A stretch of 64,000 nt of DNA from Winogradskyella aurantia (GTDB lineage: Bacteria > Bacteroidota > Bacteroidia > Flavobacteriales > Flavobacteriaceae), in assembly GCF_002266855.1 (NCBI RefSeq), contig NZ_NGJN01000001.1:372001-436000 (forward strand). The letters are read 5' to 3'. The translations under genes were made by a program, and so were the position numbers. This document shows, piece by piece, positions 20,618 to 21,517 of the stretch. The number at the start of each line of letters is the position of its first letter. Within the stretch, counting starts at the first letter, position 1. The notes under the pieces were generated by a model, which saw only the letters and a list, made by a program, of their open reading frames with translations, was not told the DNA's origin and made no database searches.

Positions 20618-21022
20618 ATGGAAAAAATAGAACATATTGGCATTGCTGTAAAAGATATAGAATCATCTAATGCTTTATTTAAATCACTTTTTGGAGAAGC
20701 GCATTATAAAGTTGAGGAAGTGGAAAGTGAAGGTGTTAAAACCTCATTTTTTAAATGTGGTCCAAATAAGATTGAATTGTTGCAGGCTACAAATCCCGAA
20801 AGTCCAATCGCAAAATTCATTGAAAAGAAAGGAGAAGGCATACACCATATAGCCTTTGCTGTAGATGATATTGACAAAGAAATTGAGAGATTAACACAAG
20901 AGGGTTTTCAAATGATTCACAAGGTTCCCAAAAAAGGGGCGGACCATAAGCTCATTGCTTTTTTACATCCGAAGTCGACCAATGGAGTTCTCATAGAATT
21001 ATGTCAAGACATTAGGAATTAA
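20618..21022 (+). CDS. mce: Methylmalonyl-CoA epimerase
   Basis: The 134-residue protein is a vicinal-oxygen-chelate fold of two beta-alpha-beta3 units. It has metal ligands in IEHIGIAVKDIE (His), KIELLQATNP (Glu/Gln), GIHHIAFAVDDI (His) and GVLIELCQD (Glu). It interconverts the 2R and 2S forms of methylmalonyl-CoA and links propionyl-CoA to succinyl-CoA through the B12-dependent mutase. The mutase genes are not nearby. The last base is followed by a putative promoter (21028) and the tRNA/GIY-YIG region. Confidence 0.93.
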   Translation: MEKIEHIGIAVKDIESSNALFKSLFGEAHYKVEEVESEGVKTSFFKCGPNKIELLQATNPESPIAKFIEKKGEGIHHIAFAVDDIDKEIERLTQEGFQMIHKVPKKGADHKLIAFLHPKSTNGVLIELCQDIRN

Positions 21023-21027
21023 AATTC

Positions 21028-21058
21028 TTGTAGAGTTTTAAAATATATAGTAATATTG
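21028..21058 (+). promoter_or_regulatory. Probable promoter reading into the tRNA remnant / GIY-YIG / tRNA region
   Basis: TTG, a 20-base spacer and TAATATTG (one mismatch to TAnnTTTG) stand directly upstream of the broken tRNA copy. This may be the original tRNA promoter, now separated from the intact tRNA by the GIY-YIG gene. Confidence 0.4.
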
Positions 21059-21092
21059 CACACTTATTTGGTTTAGCTCTTAGGAGTTAATA

Positions 21093-21151
21093 GGTCCCAT
21101 AGCTCAGTTGGTTACCTGCCTACCTGGCGGTAACGGCGGGCAGGGAGCACC
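21093..21151 (+). pseudogene. Broken 5' copy of the tRNA(CAU) gene with a 30-bp insertion in the D-loop
   Basis: Bases 21093-21114 are identical to the first 22 bases of the intact tRNA at 21412, and 21145-21151 (GAGCACC) are identical to its next 7 bases. The two parts are split by an exact 30-bp insertion (21115-21144) after GGTTA in the D-loop. After 21151 the similarity stops, so the anticodon arm, T arm and 3' acceptor strand are missing. It cannot make a tRNA. It forms a direct repeat with the intact gene on the other side of the GIY-YIG gene. Confidence 0.9.
21115..21144. repeat. 30-bp palindromic insert
   Basis: It starts CCTGCC and ends GGCAGG (perfect 6-bp arms), with an inner TACC/GGTA hairpin. 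Much more GC-rich than its surroundings. The arms resemble the CCTGCC/GGCAGG palindromes scattered in some flavobacterial genomes. A possible degenerate relative (CCTGCCGTACCTGC) lies at 21546-21559. Confidence 0.75.
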
Positions 21152-21172
21152 AAATAAGTGTATTTAAAAATA

Positions 21173-21421
21173 ATGATTTATGTTTATGTGCTTAAAAGCT
21201 TAGTTGATGACCGCTTATATGTTGGTATGACGCAAGATGTAGCTAATAGAGTAAAGGAGCATAATTCAGGTAGAACAAAAAGTACAAAAGGATATAGGCC
21301 ATGGGTTAAAGTCCATGAAGAAATATATTCGGATAGAACTGCTGCGAGACAAAGGGAAAAGTATCTTAAATCGGGATACGGAAAGCAGTGGTTAAAAAAT
21401 AAATATAAATTGGTCCCATAG
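21173..21421 (+). CDS. Single-domain GIY-YIG endonuclease, stop codon inside the tRNA gene
   Basis: The 82-residue protein is a bare GIY-YIG nuclease domain: MIYVYVLKS (GIY-like), RLYVGMT (YIG-like), the catalytic Arg in VANRVKEHNSG and the metal-binding Glu in RQREKYLKSGYGKQWLK. I chose the ATG at 21173; an in-frame GTG at 21158 would add five residues. The last codons (LVP-stop) are provided by the tRNA acceptor and D-arm sequence GGTCCCATAG, so the gene overlaps the tRNA by 10 bases. Relatives of this YhbQ/URI type are common in Bacteroidetes. The tight linkage with a duplicated tRNA end suggests a homing-like or structure-specific nuclease acting on the tRNA gene; that is inference. Confidence 0.9.
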   Translation: MIYVYVLKSLVDDRLYVGMTQDVANRVKEHNSGRTKSTKGYRPWVKVHEEIYSDRTAARQREKYLKSGYGKQWLKNKYKLVP

Positions 21422-21485
21422 CTCAGTTGGTTAGAGCACCTGACTCATAATCAGGTGGTCCTTGGTTCGAGCCCAAGTGGGACCA
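21412..21485 (+). tRNA. tRNA with CAU anticodon (tRNA-Met, elongator type)
   Basis: A 74-base cloverleaf: acceptor GGTCCCA/TGGGACC, D-arm GCTC/GAGC, anticodon arm CCTGA-CTCATAA-TCAGG, variable TGGTC, T-arm CTTGG-TTCGAGC-CCAAG, discriminator A. The first acceptor pair is G-C, so it is not initiator tRNA. Elongator tRNA-Met is most likely; a lysidine-type tRNA-Ile(CAU) cannot be fully excluded. CCA is not encoded in full. Its first 10 bases also encode the end of the GIY-YIG protein. Confidence 0.93.
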
Positions 21486-21517
21486 CAACAAAGCCTTTCG
21501 TTAGAAAGGCTTTGTTG
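21486..21517 (+). terminator. Strong hairpin after the tRNA
   Basis: A perfect 14-bp stem CAACAAAGCCTTTC/GAAAGGCTTTGTTG with loop GTTA begins directly after the tRNA. The following sequence (ATTTATAG) is only weakly T-rich, so it may act as a terminator or as a 3' processing or stability element. Confidence 0.75.

Follow-up and report, generated by a model that had tools for sequence, protein, structure and literature searches.

The window (the whole stretch of DNA analysed, 64 kb) holds a single tRNA gene detected by ARAGORN, tRNA-Met(CAU), and a small nuclease gene runs into its 5' end, behind a second, broken copy of that same end. What kind of genetic element would enter the start of a tRNA gene and leave a complete gene beside itself? 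The original prediction proposed a minimal homing-like element, one that is directed at the 5' part of a tRNA gene and rebuilds it. Two observations uphold this part of the prediction, namely empty sites in relatives and the presence of the same family at other tRNA genes.

The tRNA-Met locus and its empty counterparts

Analysis of the window revealed that the intact tRNA-Met gene (21412..21486; Rfam RF00005, 74.1 bits; all features given here are on the forward strand) is preceded by a VOC/glyoxalase-type gene (20618..21022; Pfam Glyoxalase_4, 89.8 bits). This methylmalonyl-CoA epimerase-like gene, which we take to be mce, is the left neighbour of tRNA-Met in the genus. It is followed by a likely tRNA promoter at 21028..21058, presumed from Bacteroidota consensus motifs (TTG at 21028-21030 and TAATATTG at 21051-21058). 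The TAATATTG-type block is also found upstream of the tRNA in empty sites and has been kept in the window, where it now lies approximately 350 nt upstream of the intact tRNA with the cassette in between. The broken copy begins with GGTCCCATAGCTCAGTTGGTTA, which corresponds to tRNA positions 1-22 and occurs at 21093..21114 as a direct repeat with 21412-21433; it continues with a 30-nt GC-rich palindrome, CCTGCCTACCTGGCGGTAACGGCGGGCAGG (21115..21144), placed between tRNA positions 22 and 23, and ends with GAGCACC, positions 23-29 (21145..21151). The 29 tRNA bases said to be present twice were therefore exact base by base, the copy being interrupted by a palindrome that had been left unnamed. Searching with the palindrome pattern gave a single match in the window, no match in any of 100 window shuffles, and one match at up to three mismatches across the whole 3.2-Mb genome. 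Repeat searches also located a perfect 13-bp inverted repeat around the broken copy, with the left arm in the leader at 21060..21072 and the right arm, which overlaps the end of the copy, at 21149..21161. A 14-bp inverted repeat just 3' of the tRNA (21486..21517), in the flank outside the cassette, is possibly the terminator of tRNA-Met.

The gene located between the two tRNA copies (21173..21421) encodes an 82-residue, single-domain GIY-YIG nuclease (Pfam PF01541, 58.3 bits over residues 1-76), and its last two residues (V and P) and TAG stop codon are all encoded within tRNA-Met, both as originally described. Pfam revealed no domain beyond GIY-YIG in this protein and no separate DNA-binding domain. 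The nuclease is the only ORF of at least 60 amino acids between the copies and the duplicated part is the 5' end of the tRNA, in agreement with the claim that the locus is unlike tRNA-targeting integrases. At the Rfam gathering score the window contained tRNA only, and a self-splicing group I intron RNA was not found.

The mce-like gene was present in all 36 same-genus genomes searched (one further genome, G396, lies outside the 36 examined at the mce-tRNA-Met site), and tRNA-Met was found directly after mce in 29 of 29 loci (L014-L042) and in seven more (L172-L178). As anticipated, the site is empty in relatives: a profile search that recovers the nuclease of the window detected none in these 36 loci, and 34 of the sites were clean by eye. 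In L021 and L031, which belong to sister genomes, a tRNA 5' piece with a different hairpin lies just before the intact tRNA, with no nuclease. Patchy presence with empty orthologous sites, a trait of homing endonucleases, was thus observed at this site (36 of 36) and at a tRNA-Arg site described below (22 of 30). In the tree of three flanking genes, the window genome groups on long branches with L020, itself empty, and one gain is therefore the simplest history. The idea that the window tRNA differed in type from its nearest relatives and had undergone whole replacement (co-conversion) was also considered and was dropped, given that this type is common among congeners and the tree places the window genome beside L020. 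Among 12 tRNA-Met loci including the window (four of 16 had no usable mce), nuclease and mce distances were correlated (Mantel r 0.46, p 0.006) and similar in size, on two weakly resolved trees. These distances therefore neither show nor exclude horizontal transfer, and the case for cassette gain rests on the empty sites.

Spread, targets and anatomy of the family

Comparison of the window protein with genome contigs yielded 19 loci, 15 of which were aligned with the window in the 16 rows of alignment A1; a tRNA was undetected in L051 and three others. Patescibacteria are represented among the 19 by L050 beside tRNA-Lys and L052 beside tRNA-Leu; in the latter the automatic search returned no broken copy, though visual inspection shows a tRNA-Leu-like piece that bears a palindrome. 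The A1 search matched 180 of 397 Flavobacteriaceae genomes at E <= 1e-15 (at most 14 candidates scored per genome), and 81 of 247 Bacteroidota genomes matched at E <= 1e-18. The window protein had no match at E <= 1e-10 among 50,697 phage records, nor at the same limit in a plasmid search.

The 109 best-listed Flavobacteriaceae loci were examined (L063-L091, 29 loci; L092-L171, 80 loci), with array copies merged and some genomes contributing several. A same-strand tRNA was present within 20 nt in 60 of them, within 60 nt in 84, within 100 nt in 86, within 150 nt in 94 and within 600 nt in 100, and an antisense tRNA in none. Within 100 nt, the tRNA was located downstream of the nuclease (5'-type) in 79 loci and upstream (3'-type) in seven, and the targets of these 86 loci were Leu-CAA (26), Arg-UCG (23), Ala-GGC (14), Met-CAU (10), Arg-ACG (8), Ser-UGA (4) and Asn-GUU (1). 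A further eleven loci lie 119-435 nt behind tRNA-Asn and another three 113-179 nt from an Arg or Leu tRNA. That 23 of the 109 have no tRNA inside 100 nt counts against the homing reading. A tRNA was undetected in nine loci (L089, L170, L160 and six members of a subclade found in protein genes), L089 and L170 showing broken tRNA copies by eye. In L170, eight nuclease units are arranged in tandem and are accompanied by broken copies of the tRNA 3' part, and the upstream tRNA of this locus apparently lacks its 5' half. Among 24 further Bacteroidota loci, 18 lay no more than 100 nt from a tRNA (Arg, Leu, Ser, Cys or Pro), all 18 with a broken copy at E <= 0.1; the other six had none within that distance, and four of the six are short loci under 2.7 kb. 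Broken copies accompany the nuclease at tRNA genes for Met, Arg, Leu, Ala, Ser, Lys, Cys and Pro. The expectation that the same nuclease family would be found next to other tRNA genes therefore held in Flavobacteriaceae and in further Bacteroidota loci. The restriction to 5' ends did not hold, as mirror-image 3' cassettes and the protein-gene subclade exist, and the palindrome proved near-constant within the broken copy.

The 5'-type cassettes consist, in order, of a leader, a broken copy of the tRNA 5' end containing one or two palindromes, the nuclease and the intact tRNA, while the 3'-type consists of the intact tRNA, usually a terminator, the nuclease and a broken 3' copy with a palindrome. 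These features were scored in 123 units (L043-L057 and L063-L171 with a tRNA at <=600 nt, minus the tRNA-Asn group). A tRNA-matching piece was detected in 110 of them at E <= 0.1, a lenient limit that admits some chance short matches. A 34-nt fold of <= -12 kcal/mol, to which tRNA pieces may contribute, was present in 117 units compared to 42 of 393 same-locus control windows. Under the stricter criterion of a perfect GC-rich stem of at least 7, the values were 73 of 123 units and 5 of 448 controls, and 55 of these 73 units have the stem abutting a tRNA piece. The perfect-stem count was rejected as sole criterion for the palindrome because it misses imperfect hairpins, and folding energy was used.

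The tRNA pieces abut across the insert at junction 22/23 in 15 Arg and 5 Met units, and elsewhere in single to triple cases; the Leu junction is at 24/25 by eye. According to automatic matching, broken 5' copies end at positions 22-24 in 53 of 96 cases, at 32-38 in 28 of 96, and at 11 to 46 in the remainder, the first group being explained by the palindrome starting there and the short remainder escaping detection. Broken 3' copies begin at about 14 to 56. A range of 22-32 for these starts was at one point taken as a guide to the cut site and was dropped, since further loci and L054 widen it to that range.

Two or more adjacent units were found in 19 of the 109 loci, in arrays of 2-8 units with periods of 272-384 nt, and adjacent nuclease DNA was 86-100% identical, mostly 94-100%.

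Scars, palindromes and nuclease clades

The yqeY - tRNA-Arg(UCG) site was matched in 143 genomes, of which the best-scoring 30, all from different genera, were analysed. The tRNA was present in 29 of the 30, with four sites occupied, three scarred and 22 clean. Among the occupied sites, one has three units, one has two, and one is of the 3'-type. Among the scars, L190 retains an apparent nuclease C-terminal remnant (by eye), and L208 and L212 contain hairpin-bearing tRNA pieces. A duplicated end without nuclease had been named in the original prediction as an observation that would speak against it, and such ends do occur (L021, L031, L208, L212, L215/L224 and L225); since L190 keeps its apparent remnant, these nuclease-free partial copies were read as scars and not as a refutation. 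In L093/L182 the broken and the intact copy are of different tRNA-Arg types and therefore have different histories; only one genus-mate was found, and the tRNA of its empty site corresponds to the intact copy, the broken copy being the odd one.

Several further arrangements were also recorded. At about 1480-1640 of L215/L224, which are the same place in G248, tandem 112-bp copies combine the 3' part of tRNA-Thr with a palindrome, no nuclease being found, and read as either a scar array or a nuclease-less derivative. Short tRNA 3'-end repeats lie behind intact tRNAs, with no nuclease there, in L046 (2066-2083), L147 (2355-2399) and L151 (1828-1845; all oriented), and are preceded by a hairpin in L046 and L151. 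In L214, a CCTGCC...GGCAGG palindrome is located approximately 40 nt upstream of a tmRNA gene, with an Rfam Flavo-1 RNA about 190 nt before it.

The Met palindrome, at the same site and alike in sequence, was extracted from 12 of 16 tRNA-Met cassettes, window included, by a procedure that needs conserved flanks. In these 12 its mean pairwise identity was 90%, compared to 68% for the nuclease DNA. For Leu, an identical 19-mer occurred in 13 of 19 palindromes extracted from 30 Leu loci. The conservation of both indicates that the palindrome behaves as part of the cassette. The idea that it is exclusive to the element was rejected, given that it is also present as a free intergenic repeat. Dispersed palindromes of this kind recall REP repeats, which go with RAYT proteins, Y1-type transposases. 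It could accordingly be asked whether mobility belongs to the palindrome itself, as a REP-like repeat entering tRNA genes with the GIY-YIG protein as mobilising enzyme. The near-universal presence of a palindrome or strong hairpin in the broken copies and the nuclease-free, palindrome-bearing tRNA scars, one of them in tandem (L215/L224), are consistent with such an origin, as is the presence of a 20-nt palindrome in 28 of 62 nuclease genomes against 8 of 87 (Fisher p 5.8e-7, a value uncorrected for kinship and counting cassette copies). However, 34 of those 62 genomes have no copy of the 20-nt palindrome at one mismatch, the palindrome sequence differs between targets while the nuclease-tRNA plan is constant, and none was seen by eye beside the protein-gene insertions. 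In addition, clades of nucleases that track tRNA isotype would not be predicted, and the enzyme is a GIY-YIG protein, although dispersed palindromes do occur in some genomes, so that the system does not belong with REP/RAYT elements. We therefore regard the palindrome as rather unlikely to be the mobile unit.

The nuclease tree (120 nucleases, 77 columns, with one starred branch of 117) is weakly resolved. Isotype labels required 21 changes on this tree compared to a shuffled mean of 69.6, and none of 200 shuffles was as low, near-copies being uncorrected. Clade-specific targeting, another trait of homing endonucleases, is thus apparent on a weakly resolved tree. All 12 tRNA-Asn members fall on one side of a branch with support 93. 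The Leu group (SH-aLRT 87) contains 27 of 28 Leu-CAA rows together with Leu-CAG (L055) and Leu-UAG (L052), L054 being outside, and unites Flavobacteriaceae, Lewinellaceae (L055) and Harrisonbacteria (L052). The Arg, Ala and Met labels show 5-8 changes each, which counts against the homing reading. Y5, Y16, R26 and E62 are invariant in the 16 rows of A1, as expected of the GIY-YIG superfamily, and the Tyr, Tyr, Arg and Glu at these positions are presumably the catalytic residues. Median dN/dS was 0.10 over nine pairs with 78-98.5% identity, a tenth, saturated pair being excluded, and sequence comparison thus indicates that the nuclease is under purifying selection.

The six family loci without a tRNA group together on the tree with support 92. 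In L163, L164, L168 and L171, where the nuclease occupies about 2000-2230 of the oriented loci, it is preceded by a sugar-nucleotide-epimerase-like 5' end that is interrupted after the same GGAGF motif in each case, and behind the nuclease there is a complete-looking gene with the repeated 5' end; protein-gene names are our reading of the translations. In L143 and L148, members of the same subclade interrupt another gene without a rebuilt end, which counts against the homing reading. The interrupted gene looks like that of a four-helix-bundle protein, and in L143 the nuclease is flanked by the short inverted repeats CACCTGTGAAATA and TATTTCACAGGT.

A second explanation would make the arrangement a passive by-product, in which partial tandem duplications at tRNA recombination hot spots carry along a repair-type GIY-YIG gene (UPF0213/Slx1-like). 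The solved structures nearest by sequence, as judged with the family profile, are indeed UPF0213 proteins (PDB 1zg2 and 1ywl) and SLX1, and arrays of near-identical units resemble plain tandem duplication. Against this, the isotype-linked clades span phyla, the nuclease is under purifying selection, the genus contains clean empty sites, and the epimerase-like genes are all broken after one same motif. Moreover, the window's own genome contains two further small GIY-YIG genes and two long ones, and no tRNA is present within approximately 1.5 kb on either side of the two small genes. Passive duplication is thus considered improbable. One of these small genes (L002, on C13) lies away from tRNAs, within an array of long imperfect palindromic repeats (TCGAGTG ... 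CACTCGA).

The stop codon of the nuclease overlaps the tRNA in 55 of 88 5'-type cassettes, in six of these by one base, and the leader at 21060-21172 folds unusually well (-49 kcal/mol compared to a shuffled mean of -28.4; z = -5.55). Together with the expected co-transcription of nuclease and tRNA piece, a palindrome conserved beyond the nuclease gene and a nuclease without second domain, these observations would also fit a system acting on RNA, in which the nuclease acts on the tRNA as an anticodon-nuclease-like toxin or a regulator and the hairpin-bearing tRNA piece serves as decoy or guide. However, one subclade sits in protein genes, and the rebuilding of the epimerase-like genes argues against any explanation special to tRNA; the number and place of hairpins also vary between loci, and GIY-YIG proteins of known activity cut DNA (see also the accessible part of PMC1564403). 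An RNA-level role is therefore judged highly improbable.

Proposed mechanism and relation to known systems

The recurrence of this arrangement at particular tRNA genes in many bacteria, together with genus-mates that have a plain tRNA, makes a selfish mobile element likely. The cassette is probably of the homing type, predicted from its sequence to cut its target gene while carrying the missing end. The GIY-YIG nuclease would cut the tRNA-Met gene of a chromosome free of the element, repair of the break from the cassette-bearing chromosome would copy the cassette into the cut gene, and the copied tRNA part would restore a complete tRNA gene beside the cassette, so that the host survives. The 5'-type cut is predicted to lie between the D-arm and the anticodon arm, roughly at tRNA positions 22-38, since palindromes are mostly placed at 22/23 or 24/25 and the copies mostly run out by 38. 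The palindrome may shield the displaced copy from cutting, or may stop the direct repeats from recombining and losing the nuclease. Nuclease and tRNA would be transcribed as one RNA from the former tRNA promoter, and arrays may grow through repeated cutting or unequal exchange. The empty, occupied, arrayed and scarred states and the mirror-image cassettes are present in the sequences themselves. The intact tRNA that stays beside the nuclease counts against homing, as it would expose the element to self-cutting. The lack of a second domain with which the protein might read a tRNA gene, the nuclease-free partial copies, the six Bacteroidota loci without a nearby tRNA and the free intergenic palindromes also weigh against it.

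Essential, conserved tRNA genes are the best homing targets, yet cutting them should kill the host, and the family appears to solve this problem by carrying the missing tRNA part. There is about an even chance that these cassettes represent a new class of selfish element in bacteria, acting as a natural "cut and rescue" gene drive against essential tRNA genes and composed of an isotype-specific nuclease of approximately 80 residues, a replacement tRNA part and a locking palindrome, common across Bacteroidota, present in Patescibacteria and with a branch in protein genes. If the homing reading is right, it would account for the many small GIY-YIG genes whose ends lie inside tRNA genes and would assign a function to one branch of the single-domain GIY-YIG proteins. 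It would also provide very small nucleases with distinct tRNA-gene specificities, and a natural counterpart, in ordinary bacteria, to engineered rescue drives, one whose empty, occupied, arrayed and scarred states can all be studied.

Among known systems, I-TevI is a homing endonuclease with a separate DNA-binding domain, and the window protein differs from it in that Pfam finds no such domain. The UPF0213 proteins (PDB 1zg2 and 1ywl, both titled hypothetical proteins) are likewise single-domain GIY-YIG proteins, of about 100 amino acids. In its accessible text, a 2006 analysis of the GIY-YIG superfamily contains no link of single-domain proteins to tRNA genes (PMC1564403). Group I introns that reside in tRNA genes and carry an endonuclease gene are mobile and preserve host function (accessible part of PMC3984707). 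They keep that function by splicing, whereas the tRNA cassettes would keep it by a second gene copy, with no intron RNA in the window. For fungal introns with N-terminal duplications, replacement of gene fragments by mobility has been proposed (PMC7315562, in the part available).

In enzyme and target, the closest system, as far as the accessible part of PMC13096335 describes it, is SegB, a free-standing homing endonuclease of the GIY-YIG type from T-even phages. SegB reportedly cleaves within tRNA genes and causes a tRNA-segB unit to amplify in tandem, through microhomology that the 5' end of the tRNA shares with the 3' end of segB. Like SegB, the nucleases described here are GIY-YIG, intron-less and next to tRNA genes. 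SegB is phage-borne, and the same part of that source reports no isotype preference and describes no rebuilt or hairpin-bearing tRNA copy.

Among the papers listed in searches of an open-access library, none describes the present element. What appears to be new, judging from sequence, is a target-rebuilding homing-type element in bacterial tRNA genes, the rebuilding plan being already known from the mORFs of fungal mitochondria. These mORFs (Allomyces atp6; Glomus atp6, atp9, cox2 and nad3) are the closest parallel in plan according to the accessible text of PMC3630166. In both systems the endonuclease gene separates a displaced gene end from an inserted copy of that end; in mORFs the displaced end is native, the inserted one is foreign and the two can differ in host origin. 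Here, a displaced and a complete gene end flank the endonuclease gene in the window, in 110 of the 123 units, in 18 of 18 further loci and in four of the six protein-gene cases. As that text has it, mORFs affect mitochondrial protein genes and duplicate the carboxy-terminal end, whereas here it is tRNA genes on bacterial chromosomes that are targeted, with either end being rebuilt. To the mORF plan the tRNA cassettes add conserved palindromes in the displaced copy, arrays and isotype-tracking clades.
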